A stretch of DNA of 36,532 nt from Opitutaceae bacterium (GTDB taxonomy: Bacteria > Verrucomicrobiota > Verrucomicrobiia > Opitutales > Opitutaceae), in contig JAHCLN010000017.1 in assembly GCA_026125215.1 (NCBI GenBank), positions 1 through 36,532 on the forward strand, in the 5' to 3' direction. Every line of letters begins with the position of its first letter. Within the stretch, counting starts at the first letter, position 1. The translations under genes and the position numbers were made by a program. The notes below the pieces were generated by a model. The model was not told where the DNA came from, made no database searches, and saw only the letters and a list, made by a program, of their open reading frames with translations. This document shows positions 16,935-35,590 of this stretch, piece after piece.

Positions 16935-19219
16935 TCAGACCGGGGCGATCGTGAAGCGCGTGGCCAGATCGAACGCGATCGCTCCGGGTGGCCGGCGACA
17001 CTCCAGATGCCAGACCGGTTCATAACGATGGTCGATCGAGTCCTCCCGCTGGCGGATTTCCTCCGCCCACGGCGCATGGAGCGTCAGCCGCCAGCCGGGG
17101 ACGGCCAGGGTCGCCGTCCGCTGCGCAGCATCAATCACCCACCGTTCGCGCGTGTGGAGATGAAAAACGAGTGTTTGCGGTGCGCGCAGCTCGCCCCGGT
17201 CGTGCACGGTGAACTCCGCGGGAGTGTCCGACACGATGGCGCGTTCACAACGCGTCATCACCTGCGCCCAGACCGCACCGAGGTCGATGCGCGCCCGCAG
17301 GCGGCGCTCATCCCCCTCGCCCGCCGGGATGATCGGCACCTCGGGCAGCGGCTGGCCGATGGGCCTGCCGTCGGCCGTCTCGGGCGCGAGGACGTTGTGG
17401 AGATGGGTGAGTTTGAGTCCGAAGCCGCGGATGTCGTCGTAACGGATCATGCCGCGGTCGATCAGCACCGGCAGTTCGTCGAGCTCCAGGGTGAAGGCGC
17501 CCTTGTCAAAATGCGTGTGGCTGGCGCGCGCCTTGCAGCCGCTGAGGTGCAGGCGCACGTTGCGGCCGGGGCAATCTCTTCGCGCCGGCTGGTGAGCTGG
17601 ATGGTGTGCGGCAAGCACGTTTGAGGCCGGCACGATGCCGGACGGTTCTGAGCTTCCTCCGGCCCGGCAATGAAGGCGAAAGGCCCGTCGATCATGTATT
17701 GCCGGTAATAGGTGTTGCCGCGCATCTGCAGCAACGTGCCCAAGGCGATCTTCGCATACACGTCCTGCGGATAACAGGCCGCCAGCAGCGCGATCGCGTC
17801 GCCGGTGAACCGGCTGTTGCTGTTGTCCGTCGGCGCACCACGCCCGCCGGGGCTCATCGCGGACATCACTGCCACGAAATGACTGCTGTGCGCGAGCCGC
17901 GGCGGCAACACCTGCGCGATCGGCATTCCCCGCGCGCGGGCGTAGGCGAGCAGGCCGGACAGCACGGCGTGCAACGTCACGCTGAAATAGCCCACGCCCT
18001 CGTCCACGCCGCCATCCGGCAGGATGTAGTTGGCCATGCCCTCCTGCATGTCGGCGTGCGCCTGCTCCACATAGCTTTTGGCCCGCGGCCACGCCGGTTC
18101 CAGCACCAGCCCGCCGAGGATGCGCGCGCGACAGAACCACGGCCCCTGGTTGATCGCGTAAACATATTCCCACTTCACCATGTCGCGCTGGAGGATGCTC
18201 AGGCCCTTGTCCCAGATCGCCACGCGCACCAGGTCGCGCGCCCGCTCCGTCAGCGCAAAATACAGCCAGTCGAACACCAGCGCACAGGTCGTCACCGCCA
18301 TCTCCTCCAGGAAGCAGCGCTGGTCCCAGGTGGACCCGCGCGCCCGGCTCTCGGCCGACTGGCACCAGTGCTTCGTGTGGACAAAGCACATCAGGAACCG
18401 CAACGCATGCCGTATCAACGCCCGGTCCTCCCGCACGAGGCCGACCAGCGCGCACAGCACCGGCTCGGCCATCCACGGATCGAGCCCCTGTTCCCGCTCG
18501 CGCAGGTAACGGTAGTCCGACCACGGCAGATAGTCGCCGATTTCCTTCTCCGGCTGACGCGCCAACGACTGCCGCGCCCGCTCCTCGATGATCCGGAAAT
18601 GCCCCGACCACGTGGCGCTGGCGGCACGGGCCTTCAGTCCCGGCAAATCGCCTTCGGCAAACAACAGTCCGCGCGCAAACTTGACCTCCGGCCATTCCGC
18701 CTCGGGCAAGATCAGGCCCTCCCAAGTCGCGTCGTATTCCGGCCGGGCTTTTTCCAGCCGCGCCAGCAAGGCCGAGTCCGCCACGCCCCACCACTGCAGG
18801 CTGACCATCTGCGCCCCGGGCTGTAGCGCGGTGAATTCCGCCCGCACCGCCGTTGCCGGCGCGCCCACCGGCAGGTTGATTTCCATCCGCAGGCTGTTGC
18901 CGCGGACCGGCGCGCCGAGCGAACTCCACTCGCCACCCCGACAGGCGAAAAACTCCACCGACACATCTGCCGGCACCACGACGCAAAAGACATAGCGGTC
19001 GAAACGCGCCGGCAGCCCCGCCACCGGCAGACTGAAGGAACCGGCCACCGCCCCGGCCGCGCAATCATCCCAGCGCGCCTTGGTGCTGTCCCAAAATGAA
19101 TCGCACCGAAAATTGACGGCGCGACCGGGCGTCACGGTGAGCGGCAGTTGCTCGGCGGCATGGCCGTCGTGGAACGGCGCATAGATGGACTCGGCGGGGT
19201 TCAGCTCGAAAAGTTGCAT
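16935..19219 (-). pseudogene. Heparinase II/III-like gene broken by a single-base frameshift
   Basis: Two overlapping frames on the minus strand give one heparinase-type protein of about 760 residues. From the ATG at 19219 the first frame runs through an N-terminal beta domain, the toroid (LPWSDYRYLREREQGLDPWM, WEYVYAINQGPWFCRARILGG, MANYILPDGGVDEGVGYFSVTL) and TIQLTSRREEIAP. After about 17570 the family sequence continues in another frame as GRNVRLHLSGCKARASHTHFDKGAFTLELDELPVLIDRG to the stop at 16935. The switch falls at a CCCC run (17568-17571); one extra C would restore the whole protein. It is either a real inactivating deletion or a homopolymer sequencing error. No signal peptide is visible. 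The conserved His strand (SHTHFDKGAF) lies after the shift. Confidence 0.8.
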
Positions 19220-20723: not shown

Positions 20724-21833
20724 TCACGTCGTCTTTGGCACCTGCCGGAGCATGGCCCAGACAAAGCCGGTCATCTCCCGGGCCAAGGCCACGCTGACCT
20801 TCGCCTTCATCACCCCGCGCTGCAGCAGGTGCCAGCCGCGCTTGTGCAAGCGGGTCTGCACCTGCCAGGACAGCTCCTTGTAGCGGTCCGGTTGGTCGCG
20901 CTGGCGTTCGGTCAGTTGCGTCGAGACCTTCGGCGGCAACAGCGCGTGCTGCACCACCTCGATCATCATCCAGCGCGCGTGCGCGTTGCCCGACTTGGTG
21001 ATCCCGCCGAGCCGGCGGGTCTCACCACTGCTGGCCTCCCGGGGCACCAGACCGAGGAAGCCCATCAGGTGCCGCGGATGCCGGAACCGGTGGATGTCGC
21101 CGATCTCCGCCACCAGCACCGTCGCGGCCGTCAGCTTGATGCCTCGAAAGCACATCAGGGCCGCCACGGCCGGATACATCCGCCACGAGAGCACCTGCAC
21201 GGCGATCAGCTCGTCGAGCCGGGTGATCCGGCCCTCCGCCTGGTCCACCGCCAGCAGATACTCTTCCAGCACCGACTTGAGCGCGGTCACCGGCAATTCC
21301 AGTTCCCGCAGGTAACGGCGGTGCGCTTCGCTCCAGTTGGCCTTGCCGGTGTAGTGGTAACCCTGCCGCAGGAGGAACGACTTGAGCCGCTGCCGCGCCC
21401 GCGTCAGGTCGTGCACCGCATCGCTGCGGGCGCGGGTCAGGTCCCGGATCGCCTCGTCCGCGGCGTCCGGGATGTAGATCGCGGTCAGCTCCCCGGCCCG
21501 GTGCAGCCGCGCCAGTTGCTCCGCGTCCCGCCGGTCCGTCTTTTGCCGCAGGCCCTTTTCGGCCGGCAGCTTCGAGGGCGCCACCACGATGCAGTCGATC
21601 TTCAGCGCCGTCAGCCGCCGGTGGATCACAAACCCGGTCGGCCCGGCTTCATAGACCACGCGCAACTCCCCGGCTTCGCCCCGGATCTTGCGCAGCGCCT
21701 TCTCCAGCGCCCGCAGGTCCGAGCTGATCTGCCCGTAGAGGCGCACCTCGCCCTGGCGGCTGCCCTCGGCCACCGCGATCGTGATCGTATCTTTATGGAC
21801 ATCCAGGCCCACATATCTTTGCTTCGGCTTCAT
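20724..21833 (-). CDS. IS110-family transposase (DEDD)
   Basis: A 369-residue transposase. The N-terminal RuvC-like DEDD domain shows D in YVGLDVHKDTITIAVAEG, E in VVYEAGPTGF and the DxxD pair in QKTDRRDAEQLARL. The C-terminal Transposase_20 domain shows MCFRGIKLTAATVLVAEIGDIHRF, LGLVPREASSGETRRLGGITKSGNAHARW with its conserved Ser. These recombinases insert circular element DNA using an RNA guide. The start at 21833 (MKPKQRYVGLDVHKDT) matches family N-termini; the frame is open further upstream only through the structured leader. It appears intact. Confidence 0.93.
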   Translation of the reverse strand: MKPKQRYVGLDVHKDTITIAVAEGSRQGEVRLYGQISSDLRALEKALRKIRGEAGELRVVYEAGPTGFVIHRRLTALKIDCIVVAPSKLPAEKGLRQKTDRRDAEQLARLHRAGELTAIYIPDAADEAIRDLTRARSDAVHDLTRARQRLKSFLLRQGYHYTGKANWSEAHRRYLRELELPVTALKSVLEEYLLAVDQAEGRITRLDELIAVQVLSWRMYPAVAALMCFRGIKLTAATVLVAEIGDIHRFRHPRHLMGFLGLVPREASSGETRRLGGITKSGNAHARWMMIEVVQHALLPPKVSTQLTERQRDQPDRYKELSWQVQTRLHKRGWHLLQRGVMKAKVSVALAREMTGFVWAMLRQVPKTT

Positions 21834-21928
21834 GTGCTTGTCCTTGGTTTTGGTTGTTTCGGTTACACGCCACACCACTGCGGATAGGCTCTCCTCGAGA
21901 GTAACCCGCGTCCCCCAAGGACAAGCAC
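21834..21928 (-). promoter_or_regulatory. Structured leader hairpin directly before the transposase start
   Basis: A perfect 14-base inverted repeat GTGCTTGTCCTTGG: arms 21834-21847 and 21915-21928, the inner arm touching the start codon. Inside are GGTTAC/GTAACC (21861-21866, 21901-21906) and CTCTC/GAGAG (21889-21893, 21897-21901). A further GCTGC/GCAGC hairpin lies at 21943-21958. It could limit transposase translation or, if the element behaves like the IS110 group, be the body of the guide RNA. Confidence 0.55.
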
Positions 21929-21981
21929 CCCTCTTTCGCTCTGCTGCTTCATCGCAGCTATAATGCCTAGGCAAAAGCGGC

Positions 21982-22329
21982 ATGCGCATTTTCTACCACG
22001 GTGCTTATCAAAAGTCCGACGTCCCATCAGCGGCGCCGATCGAGTCCAGCGAGACCGAAGCCAAGAGTATTTTCGCACGTCTATCCGGCGAAGGCAGCTT
22101 TCTCGGCATATTGCTCCGCGCGGACCACACGTTGCAGCTCTACCGAAAGTCGGACGGGACTCTGCATGCCGAAGTCCTCAACGAACCGAAGCGCACCATT
22201 CGCTATTGCACCATCAACGTTCCGCTCGCGGAATTGCTCATCGAGGCCGCATTCCGCGGGGAGAGTCTCGAGCAGAAGATCGCGTTCGCGAGAGTCACTT
22301 GGAATGACGACCATCTCCAATCGGCCTAA
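21982..22329 (+). CDS. Cassette-borne protein of unknown function (cassette 2)
   Basis: A 115-residue protein without signal or membrane segments. Strand-like runs alternate (GSFLGILLRADHTLQLYRKSDGTLHAEVLNEPKRTIRYCTINVPL), ending in a helix (AELLIEAAFRGESLEQKIAFARVTW). It starts 9 bases after the cassette core (T)TAGGC, and its stop codon TAA lies inside the attC R'' core GCCTAAC, the usual compact form of integron cassettes. A perfect TATAAT at 21959-21964 in the end of the IS may drive it. No family is recognised. Confidence 0.65.
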   Translation: MRIFYHGAYQKSDVPSAAPIESSETEAKSIFARLSGEGSFLGILLRADHTLQLYRKSDGTLHAEVLNEPKRTIRYCTINVPLAELLIEAAFRGESLEQKIAFARVTWNDDHLQSA

Positions 22330-22390
22330 CAAGGCGCCAGAGCCAACGACGCTACGTGTCACGCCTCGTGCTTGCGCACGAGTCGCGCCC
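22324..22390 (+). other. Truncated attC site of cassette 2
   Basis: R'' GCCTAAC (22324-22330) is the exact reverse complement of GTTAGGC, the core at the start of the same cassette (reconstructed across the IS). The variable hairpin CTCGTGC-TTGC-GCACGAG is intact at about 22365-22382, but the expected L' and R' halves do not follow. The sequence instead changes to a 15-base unit CAAAGCCGACGGGGT repeated twice (22391-22420) leading into the MITE-like element. Confidence 0.55.
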
Positions 22391-22413
22391 CAAAGCCGAC
22401 GGGGTCAAAGCCG

Positions 22414-22603
22414 ACGGGGTCAGGCCGTAAATTGTAAATTAACGTCGTCGAGGCTACCAAGTGCTCATCACGGATAGCACATGAGGTCGCTCTCAATTGA
22501 ACCACCTTATTTCGAATGAATTAGGCTTGGAACCTTGATCGACCGACCACGCTTCCGCTCCTAAAGTCCACTCCTTAATTTACAATTTACGGCCTGACCC
22601 CGT
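22414..22603. mobile_element. MITE-like element with 29-bp perfect terminal inverted repeats
   Basis: The first 29 bases (22414-22442, beginning ACGGGGTCAGGCCGTAAA) are repeated exactly in inverted orientation at 22575-22603. The 132-base interior has no coding frame and is clearly more AT-rich than the surroundings. It is a small non-autonomous element; the mobilising transposase is not identifiable from this window. It sits between a truncated attC and a gene fragment, suggesting it took part in the rearrangement. Confidence 0.75.
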
Positions 22604-22756
22604 TCACGCCAGCGCCGGCCAGCGGCGGAAGGCGGAGAAACGCGCTTGGGTGCGGTCGTAAGTCTCCCGGCGGCGGACATATTCCGCGTAGTCGGTCACC
22701 TGCTCCGGATGCGCGCGGCTATGCACGAGGAAATCGGCCTCGGGCGGAAGACAGCG
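22604..22756 (-). pseudogene. 3' fragment of a phytanoyl-CoA dioxygenase family gene
   Basis: In the frame ending at TGA 22604-22606 the minus strand encodes CLPPEADFLVHSRAHP, then EQVTDYAEYVRRRETYDR and TQARFSAFRRWPALA. This is nearly identical to the last roughly 47 residues of the intact gene at 29608-30621, with one Lys-to-Arg change in the PPEADF...RRWPAL core. At DNA level the two copies differ at about one base in eight, mostly at silent positions. The fragment begins only a few bases after the higA stop and has no start, so it is a remnant. Confidence 0.85.
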
Positions 22757-22762
22757 AAGGGA

Positions 22763-23083
22763 TTAGGCCGCGGTTTGCTGCCCGCGCTCAGCCAATTTTG
22801 CTGCAGGCCGGATTTTGGCCGTAAGCCGTTTCCGATCCTTGGCCAAGGCCCGGAAGTCACACTCCACTTGCAGCCCGTGCCAGAACTCAGGCGACTGGGA
22901 GAAGAAGGCCCCAAAACGGATGGACATGGCCGGCGTGATGGCCCGCTTGCCCAGCACGATCTCGTTGATGGCACGAGGGGACACGCCGACGGCGCGGGCC
23001 ATGGCATTCTGGGAGATGCCCAGCGGCTGAAGGTATTCCTCCAGAAGAATCTCACCGGGTGTGATAGGCAGGTTCACAGCCAT
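22763..23083 (-). CDS. higA: HigA-type antitoxin (XRE helix-turn-helix)
   Basis: A 106-residue antitoxin. The N-terminus [30 protein letters not shown] is the classic HigA/VapI pattern, with the helix-turn-helix at residues 22-46 ([25 protein letters not shown]) and the following [20 protein letters not shown] segment. HigA neutralises HigB and represses its own operon. It lies 24 bases downstream of higB on the same strand (toxin first, as is normal for higBA). A palindrome covers its start codon. The stop abuts the phytanoyl-CoA-dioxygenase fragment. Confidence 0.9.
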
Positions 23084-23099
23084 AACGTATGACGTTATG
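23081..23099. promoter_or_regulatory. Palindrome at the higB-higA junction, probable HigA operator
   Basis: CATAACGT (23081-23088) and ACGTTATG (23092-23099) form a perfect 8-base inverted repeat with a 3-base spacer, overlapping the higA ATG. It is AT-rich against a GC-rich background, like known HigA boxes. No copy is seen upstream of higB. Confidence 0.55.
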
Positions 23100-23107
23100 A
23101 GGGGATT

Positions 23108-23386
23108 TCAATGATAATCCACGATGGCCACCTTCCCCGGCCCCGCGTCGGTCCAACGAAAGATGATGCGCCATTGGTCGTTGATGCGGATGGAGTGAAA
23201 CCCGGCGTATTTGCCCGCCAGCGCTTCCAACCGGTTGCCGGGCGGCACGGCCAGATCGCTCAAGCGTCCGGCACGGTTGAGCTGATAGAGCTTGCGCAAA
23301 GCCACGCGGGCGATCGCGGAGAACCGACGACTGCTCTCCTCCAGGAAGAGTTCCTCGGTGTCGGCATCGGCGAACGACTGAATCAT
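23108..23386 (-). CDS. higB: HigB-type toxin (RelE/ParE superfamily)
   Basis: A 92-residue toxin. [17 protein letters not shown] opens it, and the core [47 protein letters not shown] is typical of HigB/'killer'-type RelE-fold proteins, including the [10 protein letters not shown] strand with its conserved basic residues. HigB cleaves mRNA at the ribosome. It is the first gene of the higBA pair. The 182 bases upstream (23387-23568) contain no gene and should hold the promoter. Confidence 0.9.
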
Positions 23387-23568
23387 GGCTGTAGATGTCG
23401 GTCCAAACCACGAGGTCCGGCCGCGAATTTATGCTCATTCAAACTGACCGAGAAATCCAGCCCACACCGGAACGCCGCCGCACCAAACCGGCCTCCAAAA
23501 CAGGGTCAGGCCCGGCCTGGCCCATTCAGGGCCGGCATCATACCCCGTCGCGAATCTCAGCGCCGGGA

Positions 23569-24504
23569 TCATGGCGCGAGGTCGTAGGCCCGGTCGCGGG
23601 AACCGGCCGGCCGCAGCAGGTTGCGCTGCGGGTCGTATTCAACGTTCCGGGTGCCATCGGGGTTCAGATAATAGGTCAGGTCAAAAAAATCTCCGTAGAT
23701 CTTCCCGTAAAGAGCCTGCTTCACCTTGCCGTCTTCATCCAGCACGGTGCGCACGCGGAAGTAATATCCGGCCTTATGGTCAAAGGTGGTCTGCTCGCGG
23801 ACTGCCGGTCCTTCGCGCCAGCGCCGCAGCTTCCACTCAGCTAGGTAACCCTCCTCGGGAGCGGCGTAATCTGATCGAAACGCAGCATGATCAGGGCCGG
23901 GCGAGAAACGCTGCAAACCGTCACCAGGATTGGAGAAAGTGACGAGCAACTCCCAGTCAAAATCGCGATCACCGCCTTGGCGAAGCTTACCGCGAAAGAC
24001 CATGTCGGTGTTCTGGCCCCGGCCATATGGCGCCACCCAGTCGCCGGCCATAAAATCATATCCGACTGGCTCGTCCAATTTCGGCAGGCTTGCCGATACC
24101 CGCCGCGCATACATCGGCACCGGATTCCGAATCCGCTTGAGCACCACCTCGATCGTCGGGTTCCATGGCTGCCACCGCCGCCAGGTAGAGCCGGTGAACC
24201 GATGATACAGGCTGCTGACCGGATAGTGTCCCGCCCGCTCCGCCCCATACGCGATTTGATAAGCCGCCGTCTTGCCCTGCAAGGTCACCAGCCCGTTCTC
24301 ATCGCTCGACCCATACGCCAAGCCAAACCGCTCCGACGGCTTGCGGTAGCCCAGGCGCTCGTAGGCGATGCCTGTCTTCGCTCCGGCCACCGGCTGCCCG
24401 ACGTCGTCCAACACCCGGAAAGTGACCTCAAAAGAACGCTCCCTAGCCGCCAGCGGAACGGCCAGCAGCATACCGCAAAGCAATCCAAGCATCATGATTC
24501 TCAT
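23569..24504 (-). CDS. Exported protein of unknown function (third gene of the operon)
   Basis: A 311-residue protein with a signal peptide (MRIMMLGLLCGMLLAVPLAARE). The next 100 residues (SFEVTFRVLDDVGQPVAGAKTGIAYE, GSSDENGLVTLQGKTAAYQIAYG) have the look of a carboxypeptidase-regulatory-like or Ig-type beta domain. The C-terminal half is rich in aromatic and charged residues (FDHKAGYYFRVRTVLDEDGKVKQALYGKIYGDFFDLTYYLNPDGT). The start overlaps the stop of the large hydrolase gene by 4 bases (ATGA), so translation is coupled. No family is recognised. Confidence 0.75.
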   Translation of the reverse strand: MRIMMLGLLCGMLLAVPLAARERSFEVTFRVLDDVGQPVAGAKTGIAYERLGYRKPSERFGLAYGSSDENGLVTLQGKTAAYQIAYGAERAGHYPVSSLYHRFTGSTWRRWQPWNPTIEVVLKRIRNPVPMYARRVSASLPKLDEPVGYDFMAGDWVAPYGRGQNTDMVFRGKLRQGGDRDFDWELLVTFSNPGDGLQRFSPGPDHAAFRSDYAAPEEGYLAEWKLRRWREGPAVREQTTFDHKAGYYFRVRTVLDEDGKVKQALYGKIYGDFFDLTYYLNPDGTRNVEYDPQRNLLRPAGSRDRAYDLAP

Positions 24505-27500
24505 GGCCCGTCACGATTGAGTTCACCCAACTCCACGATCTTTTTATACAAACCGTGCGTGTAAACGTAGGCCACCTCACGCAGATCGCTGTGCAACCAC
24601 TTTTTCTCCGGCCCGCGCTCCGCCGGCCACGGCTCGCCGACACCTCGGATTGCTGCGCTGCTCAGGTCGAAGTTGCGGGCTTCGCCTGCATCGACGGTAA
24701 GCTTTTCCACCGCATCGAACCCCGTGGCGAAGCTCATGGCGGGGATCATCCGGGCCAGCAGCGAGCTGCGGTGCCGGGCGGCGAAGGCGCTGCCGGTTTC
24801 GGGACCGTAGAGCAGGCCGAGCCGATCGGTGACAGCTTGGGTGGCGCCGCCGGGGCCGGTTTCCACCCAAGTGGTGAGCCGCAGGCGATGGCGGCCGGGC
24901 CGGAAAAACGGCTCCTCGCGCAGAGTCTCGGGGGTGAACACGCTGTCGAGCAAGGCCACCGCCTGCGGCGGGGTCAATCCGTTGGGGCGCAGCTCAGGGC
25001 CGAGGCCGTCGCGGCCGGGCCGCCGCCGGAAATCGAAATAATTAAACCCCCAGCCGCCGAAGCGGCTGCCGGCGATCTTGCCGGTGAGCAGGCGGCCCTT
25101 GAACTGCTCCTGGTAGGCCCACGAGCGAGTGCCGGCCGGCTCGGCCGCGCGGGTGGGCAGCAGAAACCACAGGTAATTGTCCAGTTCGCGTGCCAGCACC
25201 AAGGCCAGATTGGGCGTGTCGCCCCCGGCCGGCGGTGCCAGGATATCCTCCCCGGTGGAGTGGAAATTGTAGTATGCGGTGTTCGGACGAGGCGCGAGGC
25301 GGTCGCGCCAGGTCAGGGCGGCGCGGGCATCGCCCTCCGGGAAGAGCCGGTGCCACTCGGTCGCCCACAGTCTGTCCGGATAGGGCTCGCCCCGCTCGCG
25401 GTGCCACTCGGTGTGGGGCATGGCGGCGGCGGCGGCGGGCGGCTGGGCCTGGCTGCCATCAAAGGCCTCGGTGGGCACGGCGGCATCGATGAGGTAGAGC
25501 CGGTCCACCGGGGCGGTGTGATCGGAGATGGCGGCGGAAATCACCAGGGCGCCCAGGCTGAAGCCGGCCGCCTGCACCCCACCCGGACGCCGGGCGCGCA
25601 GCGCGTGGAGAAACGCGGCGCAGGCCGGCGCCGTGCCGAAGGCGTTGACCACGTTGCTGTGGTAGTCGGGCGAAACCCGCGCGCCCCCGAGTCGCTTTTG
25701 CGACTCATGGCCATACCAAGTGACGCCCCAGAACTGGGCGCGCGAACCGCTCCAGAAGAACCGCTTGAACACCTCCGCGTGCCAGCCGCGCGCCTGCTCG
25801 GGATTGTTGTTGTAACCGTGCAAGAAAACGAAGGCCTGGTCGTTCTCCAGCTCCACCGGCCAGTTGGGCGCGCCGCCGCGTGACTTCGTGCGCGGGGCGA
25901 GGCCCACCGCACCGGTCAGGTTGACGTGCCGAAACATATCCTCCACGCCGGAAAAACTCAGCGGCAGCGTCAATTGGGCCAGCCGCGCGGGACCGCGCCA
26001 GACTTCGAGCCGCAAGGGGGCTTGGGTAAGCCGACGGGCCTCGCAGAGAATGATGCCTTGGCCGGAGGTCAGAATCCGACCGAGAAAAGCGCGGTCAAGG
26101 ATGGCGCCCTCTTCGGTAGCCACAGTGACTGCAGCCTCGCCCAGTGCATCCGCCACCGCCGGCACGCGCAGGTAGTCTCCGGCTCGATCGGGCGTAAGCT
26201 CGGTGGCGAAGAAGGCGAGCGCCGCATCGGCTTGGGCGATCCGGTAGGTGATGGCGGGATCTTCAGGCGAAAAGGCGCGCAGCAGCGGGGCGATGTCGAG
26301 ATGCACCGGGAAAAAATCCACCAGATCGCGCGGGCCGTTTACGCGGTTGTCGGCGTGGTTGGGATTACCGGCCTCGGGAATGTCGTCACCTTCGGTCGCA
26401 CCGGCGTCGTCATCGTCGTTGAGCCAGTAATGCCAGGGCAGCCCCTCACGGGTCAGCAGAAGATCGGGATTGTCGGGATCGGTGCCGGCCTCGATGCGGC
26501 CATCGCGATCAACGTCCACCCGCAGCCGGGACGGCAAGAGCAGGAACGCACGGATTTCATAAAATCCATCACCGGACTCGGGGTCCAGGTAGAGGCCGGT
26601 GCCTACGAGGGCGCCGTCATCGTTGATGTCGGCAACATCCACCACCTCCCAACCCTCCGGAAAAAGGTCCTCAATCAGGTAGGGGGTGTAGTCGAAGTCG
26701 GGGGCATCCAACGCCTCCGGCAGGGCCTCGACGGGCAGGAGCACCCAGCCGTCGGCGGTTTCACCCACGATGTCGCCGCGCTGGTTGATGCGCGTGGGAC
26801 GCAGGCCAAGCAGGACATGGGCCGCGCCTTCACGCCAGAACACACCCTGCCCATCGAGCCAGTCATAGCCCACCACCCAGCCGGCCTCGTTGATGGCCGC
26901 CGGTGCAAAGTCCACGGCCTGGTGACCGATAAAATCCTCCGCCGAGCCTCCGTGAAACACCCGCCAGCCGACCATGGTGCCGGCGGTGTTTACGTCGGTC
27001 AGTTCGATGCTCGGTCCCGGGGGGATTTGCTCCAGGTAGTAGTGGTGGCTTTGGTCGTAGCCAATTTGCGAGGGCGGACTGGAGGCGCCGGTCCAGCGCA
27101 CAAGACCCCAGAGAGCCGTCGCCTGATCATCAAGCGCTTGGTAGGGAGCGTAGCCCCAGATACGCCGGTCGTCATCCACCCAGCCCGGCCAAACGCCACT
27201 GATCCGGTGAAACGAAGCGCTGCGTTCATCGTAGCCGAGGTAGGTGACCGGGCTGAAAATCTCCTGACCGAATGCCTCCCCTGCCGGCCAATACCAACCG
27301 CGCTGGGTGGAGAGGGTGGAATTGTCATCCGGCACGCCCTGTGAAGTGGATCCAATCACATCACCGTGACGGTTCATGTCCCAATCCAGATTGAGATATC
27401 CGGAGGGAAACAACAGGTCCTCACGGTGGCCGGCACGCCAGCGAAAGACATCGGTATAGGTGCTGACCAAGACGGTGCCGTCGGCAGCCAATCTTTCGCC

Positions 27501-27722
27501 AAAAGTGCCGACCGGCAAAGCCACCACGGCATGGGTGGGAGTGTGGACGCGCGGCGGCGGCGCAGCGGGAAAATCAAATTGCCGGGCCACCGGACCCGCC
27601 GCGGTGGCAGCCTCGGCATCAACGGCCCCCGAAGGTGCGGTTCGCGACGACGATGCGCTCCCAGCCACCAGCAGCGTGAGCAGCAGCCGGGCCGGCAGCA
27701 ACGCGAACCGGGTAGAGTTCAT
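24501..27722 (-). CDS. Large exported protein: HAF-type repeats plus alpha/beta-hydrolase domain
   Basis: About 1073 residues. A signal peptide (MNSTRFALLPARLLLTLLVAGSA) precedes roughly 350 residues with repeats of the HAF type (MNRHGDVIGSTSQG, NTAGTMVGWRVF, INEAGWVVGYDW, INQRGDIVGETADG, INDDGALVGTGLY). A Ca-binding-like stretch (DVDRDGRIEAGTDPDNPD) and a beta region follow. The C-terminal third holds an alpha/beta hydrolase: FVFLHGYNNNPEQARGW as the oxyanion strand and AAGFSLGALVISAA with the nucleophile Ser in G-F-S-L-G; NFHSTGEDIL is a candidate acid/His region. This resembles DUF900/PGAP1-like lipases or esterases. The start at 27722 overlaps the previous stop by 4 bases. The frame extends further upstream, but that is inside the preceding gene. 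Confidence 0.8.
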   Translation of the reverse strand: MNSTRFALLPARLLLTLLVAGSASSSRTAPSGAVDAEAATAAGPVARQFDFPAAPPPRVHTPTHAVVALPVGTFGERLAADGTVLVSTYTDVFRWRAGHREDLLFPSGYLNLDWDMNRHGDVIGSTSQGVPDDNSTLSTQRGWYWPAGEAFGQEIFSPVTYLGYDERSASFHRISGVWPGWVDDDRRIWGYAPYQALDDQATALWGLVRWTGASSPPSQIGYDQSHHYYLEQIPPGPSIELTDVNTAGTMVGWRVFHGGSAEDFIGHQAVDFAPAAINEAGWVVGYDWLDGQGVFWREGAAHVLLGLRPTRINQRGDIVGETADGWVLLPVEALPEALDAPDFDYTPYLIEDLFPEGWEVVDVADINDDGALVGTGLYLDPESGDGFYEIRAFLLLPSRLRVDVDRDGRIEAGTDPDNPDLLLTREGLPWHYWLNDDDDAGATEGDDIPEAGNPNHADNRVNGPRDLVDFFPVHLDIAPLLRAFSPEDPAITYRIAQADAALAFFATELTPDRAGDYLRVPAVADALGEAAVTVATEEGAILDRAFLGRILTSGQGIILCEARRLTQAPLRLEVWRGPARLAQLTLPLSFSGVEDMFRHVNLTGAVGLAPRTKSRGGAPNWPVELENDQAFVFLHGYNNNPEQARGWHAEVFKRFFWSGSRAQFWGVTWYGHESQKRLGGARVSPDYHSNVVNAFGTAPACAAFLHALRARRPGGVQAAGFSLGALVISAAISDHTAPVDRLYLIDAAVPTEAFDGSQAQPPAAAAAMPHTEWHRERGEPYPDRLWATEWHRLFPEGDARAALTWRDRLAPRPNTAYYNFHSTGEDILAPPAGGDTPNLALVLARELDNYLWFLLPTRAAEPAGTRSWAYQEQFKGRLLTGKIAGSRFGGWGFNYFDFRRRPGRDGLGPELRPNGLTPPQAVALLDSVFTPETLREEPFFRPGRHRLRLTTWVETGPGGATQAVTDRLGLLYGPETGSAFAARHRSSLLARMIPAMSFATGFDAVEKLTVDAGEARNFDLSSAAIRGVGEPWPAERGPEKKWLHSDLREVAYVYTHGLYKKIVELGELNRDGP

Positions 27723-29521
27723 GGGGCCAAGGGCTCGAGGTAAACCTGCGCAAGACCGGAGGCGTCCGCACGCACCGTCAGTTGATAAACGTAGTCTGGT
27801 CCACCCGGCACCGCCGCAATGCGCCGCTGGCCTTGGCGAACCGTAAACGTGACCGGTGCGCCGGGCCAAGGTGTGCCATCCGGTCGGCGCACGATCATGG
27901 CCAGCTCATCCTGCGGGCCTGGCCCGCCGTCGTGCAGACTGTCGAGCACGGGCTTCACGGCGTTGTAAAAATCCAAGGGATCGCTGCCGGCGACATACTC
28001 CTGCGCGTTGCTCAAGCCGTCACCGTCGGGGTCATCTTCCGGCAAAGGGTCGTCTTCCTCGGCAAAATACTTGCGCACCCATTCGTCCGGCAGACCGTCG
28101 GCATCGCTGTCCTCCGGCAGGGTAGCGATGTCCACCTCGGGGCCGTCGGTGGAGAGATTGCCAGCGAAATCAAAGCTCCGCACCTGATAGGTGAACTCCT
28201 CCCCGGCCGGCAGATCTTGATCCGTGAAAGTCGTGGTGCGAATCGGGTCGGCGGTCTCAATCGGCTGGCCATCGCGATAAACGATGTAGCCGGCCACGCC
28301 GAGGTTGTCCGCCGCCGGCTGCCAAGTGAGCGTGATGCGGTCGGAGCCGGCGGAAGCCGCGGTCAACCCCGCCGGTGCACTGGGCGGCTGGGTGTCCGGA
28401 TTGGGTGCTTTCGGGTTCAGGCCAAGATGGATCTCATCGCCATCATAGAGCCCATCGCCATCGGTGTCGGGGTTGTTGGGATGCAAGCCCAGCAGATACT
28501 CCTCATGGTTCGTCAACCCGTCTCCGTCCGGATCAAAATCCCGCTCGTCAATGTTCGGATCCAGGCCGTGGGCGAGCTCCCAGTCATCGGGCATGCCATC
28601 GCCATCGGTGTCCGCGGGCCCCGTTGGAAGCATCGCTGCGACCAATCGCAGCACTGCGCCGCCATTCACAGTCAGACGATAGGCGGCAACCCCGCCGATA
28701 AGTTGCGCATTACCGTTGAGCGTAACCGCGCCTGCGGGGACCTCGACCCGCGCATGGGTCCGCGCGCCGCCGTTGAGCGTGAGCCCGCCGGCCGCGAACC
28801 GCAGATTCAGCCACTCCGGGTGTCCGGCGAGGCCAAGGGTGGCGTTGGTCGCAAGGCCATTGGCCAGTGTCACAACGACGGGCCCGACCACCTCCAACGT
28901 GCTCGCGCCGTTGAGCGTGAGCCTTTGGAAGGCATATTCGGCAGGGGCGGTCGATCCCGCAATCCCGAGCACGAAACCGCCGGAACCGTTGGCAGTAAAG
29001 TTTCCATAAGCGCCGGGAGGCACGGCGATCCGACCGGCGTTGCCGTTGAGTGTGAGATGGCGCAGTGTGCTGAAATCACCGGCCAACTGGCCGGGGCCGT
29101 TGAGCGAAACACTCCTCACACCTGTTGGAGCCGGCGGCGGCGCAACCACAGGCAGGGCCGTCGGATCGGTCCGGCGCACGACATGACGGAGCTGGGCGCC
29201 CCCGTTGAGCGTGATACGATGATGCGTGGGGGTCACGGAACCCGGGCCGTCAATCGTGCCTTCATAATCCGGTCGTCCATTTAGTCGCACTTCCGGCATC
29301 CCGGGGACCAACAAATCGCCCGAGACACGGGCACCGCCATTGAGGGTCGTGCTCTCAGCAAACAGCTGCTGGATCGAGCCCTCAACTGTTCCATTCAGTG
29401 TCGGGGCCCTTTGCACAAGTGCGGTGCCCGTCCCACCATCCTGAGCCATAGCCACAAGGCCATCCCCAATCCCCGCACAGAGGATGAGCACGAGCATCGG
29501 CCTCACACGTAATAGGCCCAT
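27719..29521 (-). CDS. Exported 'LNG'-repeat beta-solenoid with TSP3 Ca-binding repeats and FN3 domain
   Basis: 600 residues. After a signal peptide (MGLLRVRPMLVLILCAGIGDGLVAMAQ) come about eleven repeats of 15-30 residues centred on T-L-N-G(-G) (TLNGTVEGS, TLNGGARVSG, TLNGGAQLRH, LTLNGNAGRI, LTLNGASTLEV, LTLNGGARTH, VTLNGNAQLI, LTVNGGAVLRL), a pattern expected to stack into a beta-solenoid. Thrombospondin type 3-like repeats follow (DTDGDGMPDDWE, DPDGDGLTNHEEY, DTDGDGLYDGDE), then an FN3 domain (PSAPAGLTAASAGSDRITLTWQPAADNLGVAGYIVYRD), two more Ca-binding turns and a C-terminal beta domain. It is likely a surface or matrix protein. An in-frame ATG at 29497 with GTGAGG before it is an alternative start, but it loses the positively charged signal n-region. 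Confidence 0.78.
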   Translation of the reverse strand: MGLLRVRPMLVLILCAGIGDGLVAMAQDGGTGTALVQRAPTLNGTVEGSIQQLFAESTTLNGGARVSGDLLVPGMPEVRLNGRPDYEGTIDGPGSVTPTHHRITLNGGAQLRHVVRRTDPTALPVVAPPPAPTGVRSVSLNGPGQLAGDFSTLRHLTLNGNAGRIAVPPGAYGNFTANGSGGFVLGIAGSTAPAEYAFQRLTLNGASTLEVVGPVVVTLANGLATNATLGLAGHPEWLNLRFAAGGLTLNGGARTHARVEVPAGAVTLNGNAQLIGGVAAYRLTVNGGAVLRLVAAMLPTGPADTDGDGMPDDWELAHGLDPNIDERDFDPDGDGLTNHEEYLLGLHPNNPDTDGDGLYDGDEIHLGLNPKAPNPDTQPPSAPAGLTAASAGSDRITLTWQPAADNLGVAGYIVYRDGQPIETADPIRTTTFTDQDLPAGEEFTYQVRSFDFAGNLSTDGPEVDIATLPEDSDADGLPDEWVRKYFAEEDDPLPEDDPDGDGLSNAQEYVAGSDPLDFYNAVKPVLDSLHDGGPGPQDELAMIVRRPDGTPWPGAPVTFTVRQGQRRIAAVPGGPDYVYQLTVRADASGLAQVYLEPLAP

Positions 29522-29607: not shown

Positions 29608-30621
29608 TCACCTTCCGGCGGTTTCCAGCGCCGGCCAGCGGCGGAAGGCGGAGAAACGGGCCTGAGTGCGGTCGTAGGTCTCGCGGCGTTTCACGTATTC
29701 CGCGTAGTCGGTCACCTGCTCAGGATGCGCCCGGCTGTGCACGAGGAAATCAGCCTCAGGCGGGTAGCAGGCGATGTTGCCCTTCTCGTAGAACTCGGGA
29801 TTGGCCACGCCCTCGGCGTCGAGCGACTCGGGCCAGAGACCGACATTGTTGGGCACCTCGGCCGACTGGTAGCGCAGGTCCACGCTCCAGCGGATGTGGT
29901 CGGAATAGTTGGGCGTCGAGCAGTGCGGCGTGCGGTTGGTCATGAAGACCACCCCGCCGCGCGGACAGGCCGCGGTGATCGCCTTGCGGGGATCGTCCGG
30001 CAGGTCGTTGTCCTTGATAACCAGAAAACCGGCGTTGCCGCCGGTGTGGTGCGTGGCCACCCGGCCGCGGTGCGTGCGCGGGAGGATCTGCATGCAGCCG
30101 TTTTCCACGGTGGCGTCCACCAGCGGCACCCAGCAGGTGATGATGAGCGACTGGTCGCAATGCGAGGCGAAGTAGCCGCTGTCCTGATGCCACGGCACGA
30201 CCCCGCGGCCGATGTTGGGCAGCTTGGGCCGGACGCGATAAACGGAGGAGGCCACGATCTCCTCGGTGCCGAGCAGCGAGGCGACCTTCGCCAGCAGCTT
30301 CGGGCTGGCGATGACATCAAACATCTCGGGCGCATGAAAGCCGCCGCCGCGCAGCCCCTCGAGGTGCCGCATGATGGCCTCGCCGTTTTCCTTCGAATCC
30401 CGGTGCAGCGCGGCCAGCCGGTGGTCGAAGTCGAGCTCCGCGTGGAGATTCGTCAGCTTGCCCTCGGCCTGCAGCTGGCGGGCCTTGCGGTCGATCTCCT
30501 GGTGCAGCTCCCGGCGGAGCGGCTCCAAGTCGGCCGGAGCAAAGACGTCGGGCACGATCACATAGCCTTCCTCATGGAAGAAACCGATTTGTTGCGGGGT
30601 GAGTGGCGCTGGGGCGTTCAT
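29608..30621 (-). CDS. Phytanoyl-CoA dioxygenase (PhyH) family protein
   Basis: A 337-residue Fe(II)/2-oxoglutarate-dependent oxygenase. The facial triad is visible as H145 and D147 in VPWHQDSGYF and H233 in TPHCSTPNYSDHIRWSVDLRYQ, with R244 as the likely 2-oxoglutarate-binding Arg. Relatives hydroxylate diverse small molecules, so the fatty-acyl substrate of the founding member should not be assumed. It is a single-gene unit with its own terminator, divergent from the SDR gene across a 118-base gap. Its last roughly 47 codons have a diverged copy at 22604-22756. Confidence 0.88.
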   Translation of the reverse strand: MNAPAPLTPQQIGFFHEEGYVIVPDVFAPADLEPLRRELHQEIDRKARQLQAEGKLTNLHAELDFDHRLAALHRDSKENGEAIMRHLEGLRGGGFHAPEMFDVIASPKLLAKVASLLGTEEIVASSVYRVRPKLPNIGRGVVPWHQDSGYFASHCDQSLIITCWVPLVDATVENGCMQILPRTHRGRVATHHTGGNAGFLVIKDNDLPDDPRKAITAACPRGGVVFMTNRTPHCSTPNYSDHIRWSVDLRYQSAEVPNNVGLWPESLDAEGVANPEFYEKGNIACYPPEADFLVHSRAHPEQVTDYAEYVKRRETYDRTQARFSAFRRWPALETAGR

Positions 30622-35062: not shown

Positions 35063-35590
35063 TCAGCCATTTTCAGCCAACCACTCCGGCACTGGCCGAT
35101 CAGAGTTCAGCATGTCGCGGAACCAAGCCCAGTCTGAAGCTCCACAATAATACCAAGGCCATGAATCCCGGCGTTGGCAAAGTGCGGCGCGGTAGGGATT
35201 GAGAAATACATAGAGAAACAACGAGAGACGATCATCTTCAGGCCGGATGTGATGATCGAAAAAACCTCGCTGCCATTGCAGTTGGGCATACGCGCCCAGT
35301 GTGCTGCCAGACTTTGCCTTCAAGCGCGCCACCGCCCGGCTCAATGGGAGCCGGTCTCCCAAGATGACCAACAGGTGCAGATGGTCAGGCATCACCACGG
35401 CACATCGCACCTGCCAGGTGCCGTCGGATTCCATCCGATGCATTTCATCCATGATGGCTGTTGCCACGGGCGAAGCCGTTAATCCCGGTTGGCGGGATTG
35501 AGTGCAAATGGTCAAAAAATATTCAGCGCCGGTGCTAGAAAACCGGCCGCGACGCAGGGCGGCATGTCCTTTGGCAGGATCACGTGGCAT
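35063..35590 (-). CDS. REP-associated tyrosine transposase (RAYT, Y1/HUH family)
   Basis: About 175 residues. The N-terminus (GRFSSTGAEYFLTICTQSRQPG) is typical of RAYTs. The HUH motif is MPDHLHLLV (H70, H72) and the catalytic Tyr is in the LFLYVFLNPYRA helix (Y127), following WQRGFFDHHIRPEDD. RAYTs nick single-stranded REP hairpins next to a GTAG tetranucleotide; exactly such units flank this gene on both sides in inverted orientation. The ATG at 35590 places the family N-terminus at the start; the ATG at 35605 is also possible. It appears intact. Confidence 0.92.
   Translation of the reverse strand: MPRDPAKGHAALRRGRFSSTGAEYFLTICTQSRQPGLTASPVATAIMDEMHRMESDGTWQVRCAVVMPDHLHLLVILGDRLPLSRAVARLKAKSGSTLGAYAQLQWQRGFFDHHIRPEDDRLSLFLYVFLNPYRAALCQRRDSWPWYYCGASDWAWFRDMLNSDRPVPEWLAENG

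Follow-up and report, generated by a model that had tools for sequence, protein, structure and literature searches.

The locus described here raises the question of how the 3' end of a phytanoyl-CoA dioxygenase (PhyH)-family gene came to lie 7 kb from an intact copy of the gene. The window, meaning the whole 36,532-nucleotide stretch analysed, corresponds to contig C79 in a draft genome that totals 3.46 Mb over 224 contigs, and the nearest named relatives of this genome are Opitutaceae MAGs, UBA2377 first. The presence of a diverged 3' PhyH fragment, proposed in the initial annotation, was confirmed. Together with the end of the intact gene, it forms a direct repeat (139 nt, offset 7016) far longer than any other in the window, with both members on the minus strand, and a search of the whole 3.46-Mb genome recovered the match at E = 3e-47. 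The relevant features are as follows.

20724-21989, minus strand: IS110-family transposase gene, inside the same insertion (Pfam PF02371, PF01548)
22409-22608, no strand: mobile inverted-repeat (MITE-like) element (bounded by 29-bp terminal inverted repeats; its DNA fold has z -7.4)
22609-22747, minus strand: orphan 3' tail of a diverged PhyH-family gene, 46 codons, which may extend in frame to 22756 (89% identity to 29625-29763; dN 0.024, dS 0.52)
22763-23083, minus strand: HigA antitoxin gene (TIGR02607, E 1.9e-25, above cut-off)
23052-23438, minus strand: presumed HigB toxin gene, by position (an about 50% identical partner lies beside HigA in related genomes)
23569-29521, minus strand: three genes of 311, 1122 and 600 aa between HigBA and the intact PhyH gene, given no role (partial relatives of all three in genome G013, another member of the family)
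29608-30621, minus strand: intact PhyH-family dioxygenase gene, 337 aa (Pfam PF05721, E 3e-28; 96% identical orthologue in UBA2377)
29625-29763, minus strand: stretch of the intact gene corresponding to the fragment (repeat alignment)

The partner of the fragment had initially been placed at 29608-29760, which is out of register by 12-17 bp; positions 29608-29624 hold the last residues and stop of the intact gene (ETAGR*), and the fragment lacks them. The copies disagree at 15 of the 138 bases of the strict core (10.9%), and the earlier figure of about 13% results if the ragged 5' edge is included. At this edge, up to three further codons (CGC TGT CTT, to 22756) may be homologous and in frame, because the Cys is kept. 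The intact gene passes the PF05721 gathering score (100 bits versus a cut-off of 22), and its PhyH domain spans residues 15-244 of the protein. The fragment covers only about residues 285-332, so that the catalytic domain is absent, and it is probably without function now.

Among the 46 codons compared, 12 differ silently and 1 by replacement, which is the single Lys/Arg difference already reported for the shared 46-residue core. These counts correspond to dN 0.024, dS 0.52 and a dN/dS of about 0.05. When the changes were polarised with relatives, those assignable to the fragment (codons 23, 27, 29 and 34, probably also 9 and 14) were all silent. No replacement change is clearly the fragment's own, because its Arg at codon 25 is also present in two other members of the genus. 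In a random-mutation simulation, five changes without an amino-acid change had a probability of about 0.001. Together with the silent bias, this indicates that most of the divergence arose while both copies were working genes and that the truncation is recent. The count of synonymous and non-synonymous changes suggested in the initial annotation thus bears out its view that both copies were under selection before one was truncated. The locus therefore provides a small, clean example in which silent-site counts show a truncation to be younger than the split of the two copies.

A simple recent local (tandem) duplication was ruled out, as had been claimed, by the level of divergence (dS 0.52, dN 0.024), the silent bias and the zero fragment-assignable replacement changes. 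Neither near identity nor dead-copy substitutions across all codon positions, one of which such a duplication should leave, were found. For comparison, the body of the intact gene differs from its orthologue in UBA2377, the nearest species, by dS 0.47. The tails would therefore have split roughly as long ago as these two species, with the tail dS being a rough value that rests on 46 codons, since windows of that size taken along the gene give values between 0.20 and 0.91.

In relatives with a conserved gene order, about 0.1-3.2 kb separate the PhyH gene from the heparinase-like gene that comes next (16935-19219 in the window), compared with a gap of 10.3 kb here. The gap encompasses the IS110 transposase gene, a small ORF, the inverted-repeat element, the fragment, HigA, the presumed HigB and the three further genes, of which the 600-aa one encodes TSP3 repeats and matches fn3 weakly. 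In UBA2377, this gap measures 2.3 kb and contains an IS110 element end together with a relative of the inverted-repeat element seen here. The 6.9-kb block between the fragment and the intact gene is absent at the corresponding place in relatives. The gap between the PhyH and heparinase-like genes is thus a site of repeated insertion in these bacteria. In comparison with UBA2377 and other relatives, the heparinase-like gene itself (minus strand) falls into two frames, with several small indels and a break near 17540-17850, and represents either a pseudogene or an assembly error.

Our tentative preference is to derive the fragment from a second, diverged allele of the PhyH locus, whose 3' tail would have been displaced and left behind by one-sided recombination. 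Incoming DNA from a related cell would have carried a PhyH copy, followed by the three genes and HigBA. It would have paired with the resident DNA on the homologous side, comprising PhyH and the upstream SDR gene, while the other side would have joined illegitimately inside the tail of the resident gene (homology-facilitated illegitimate recombination). The last 46 codons of the resident gene would then have been left behind as an orphan, downstream and in the same orientation. We infer both the recombination step and the resident and newcomer roles of the copies from one genome. This displacement is supported by the silent-only private changes, by the similarity of the tail and body dS values, and by the position of the fragment downstream of the intact gene on the same strand, separated from it by a block not found at the locus in relatives. 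Furthermore, the inverted-repeat element lies next to the fragment, and its close relative in the UBA2377 gap is as expected if the fragment end is the resident side.

Against the displacement stands the distance to UBA2377, which is 18.8% for the fragment and 13.8% for the intact tail, so that the intact copy, not the fragment, looks vertically inherited. On the homologous side, a check for a mosaic break found the divergence of the intact gene from UBA2377 to be even, and this evenness leans towards the intact copy as the native one. The same observation (uniformly about 10% along the gene, with no break at the tail) favours a different origin, in which the fragment, as the odd one, came from a sister species together with the left-hand block (HigBA or the inverted-repeat element) and settled beside an untouched resident gene. 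We consider this distinctly unlikely, as the element and HigBA are both found elsewhere in relatives without a PhyH tail, and, unless homology guided it, a same-strand landing 7 kb downstream of the homologous gene would be a coincidence.

When 252 genomes of the family were searched for a donor, the best match to the fragment was the intact copy in its own genome (89%), followed by ACE_VER3 (86%). No full-length donor or resident allele for the fragment was present among these 252 genomes, which weighs against the displacement. The viral contigs searched gave no match. The tail-only tree joins the two copies as weakly supported sisters (62/92), the outcome named beforehand as speaking against a homologue from another lineage. 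When the gene bodies were included, the intact copy joined UBA2377 (80/99) and the fragment fell outside; forcing both copies together in this tree costs 0.7 log units (AU p 0.475). The informative sites among the fragment, the intact copy, UBA2377 and ACE_VER3 are tied 4 to 4, and the trees and AU tests on 138 bases rejected no topology. The claim that the fragment is a remnant from another lineage is accordingly not established, given the weak sister grouping and tied sites, although the synonymous distance equals a between-species one. On sequence grounds, the 138 bases appear compatible with an unsampled sister species as well as with an old within-lineage paralogue and cannot decide between them.

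The weak sister grouping, which also counts against the displacement, fits a local paralogue equally. Here, a local duplication around the time of the UBA2377 split would have given two functional copies, one of which later lost all but its tail when HigBA and the inverted-repeat element came in. The codons at positions 12 and 36, common to the fragment and the intact copy, point in the same direction. Such a history seems rather unlikely, given that the gap holds no second PhyH copy of this type at any of about 40 related loci, and that the fragment agrees with ACE_VER3 at four bases of codons 24-25, against the intact copy and UBA2377.

Both borders of the fragment were characterised. On one side, the HigA stop codon lies 6-15 bp from it, and the homology of HigBA to other loci ends at this stop. 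Here the fragment meets no microhomology-free alternative, for example the end of a transposon, which speaks for the displacement. The presumed HigB had zero profile matches in Pfam and NCBIfam. Within 22600-22763 (minus strand), the orphan tail lies in the HigA reading frame, directly behind the HigA TAA, where read-through would yield a fusion; this shared frame is probably due to chance. The HigA junction also bears on the assembly. A chimera of the alleles of two species in a metagenome bin would be in keeping with a draft of 224 contigs, with MAGs as the nearest named relatives and with the resemblance of the fragment to the allele of another species. Such an artefact is nevertheless very unlikely, as the two flanks of the insertion are similarly distant from UBA2377 and the junction offers no shared repeat on which an assembly could go wrong.

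On the other side, the inverted-repeat element begins where the fragment homology stops and supplies a TGA, so that the fragment reads ...RRWPALA*. The terminal sequence of the element, (C)GTGAACGGGGTCAGGCCGTAAATTG, with variable outermost bases, recurs in this genome and in UBA2377. Most occurrences form facing pairs with a spacing of 0.13-1 kb, and one such pair, a 1-kb copy at G000:C222:6820-7834 (L016), encloses a Y1 transposase. Within the bacterial family, these inverted repeats with a variable interior are largely confined to this genome and UBA2377. A partial match to a Y1 (IS200-like) transposase was also observed at 35288-35530 (minus strand). Behind a 115-aa ORF, an attC-like start, GCCTAACAAGGCGCCAGAGCC (22324-22400), is truncated by the inverted-repeat element. 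The genome encodes two integron integrases that score above cut-off (contigs C207 and C168). A cassette array at the attC-like motif (22325) was considered and rejected, as the searched 5' half was found once in the genome and no array was seen.

In E. coli, e14-type elements integrate at the 3' end of icd, where the carried tail restores the gene and the old tail stays at the far end. Integration of this kind by an integrase would produce the same topology as found here, with a restored gene, a block and a silently diverged tail on the same strand. As in icd/e14, two diverged, mostly silently differing 3'-end copies flank the block. Unlike icd/e14, however, profile searches recognised no integrase gene between 22763 and 29608, and about 40 related loci showed no recurrence in the form of tail fragments beside PhyH; this origin is scarcely to be expected. 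The broader idea that incoming DNA lands preferentially at the PhyH 3' end and, repeatedly and without an integrase, exchanges the tail of a gene that stays functional is barely plausible. Whichever explanation holds, the locus carries an ordinary genomic scar of a known kind, and the general picture is unchanged by the finding.

Two published systems also offer close comparisons. The inverted-repeat element resembles the REP and Y1-transposase-associated inverted-repeat elements, a published class (PMC2817692), in its hairpin-forming inverted repeats and in the 1-kb copy enclosing a Y1 transposase in the same genome. It differs from them in its variable interior (0.13-1 kb) and low copy number. 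For the preferred displacement, orphan genes and orphan 3' ends have been described in T6SS effector-immunity and Rhs loci of Vibrio, where homology-facilitated illegitimate recombination is the proposed cause (PMC5361080); this type of recombination has also been shown in E. coli conjugation (PMC3240628). As in the T6SS and Rhs orphan ends (PMC5361080), a newcomer gene and cargo would occupy one homologous end here, and a diverged remnant lies downstream on the same strand, with cargo that is absent at the locus in relatives. In contrast to those loci, the gene concerned is a metabolic PhyH-family gene without toxin-immunity logic, it left a single remnant, and the recombination is proposed from one genome.
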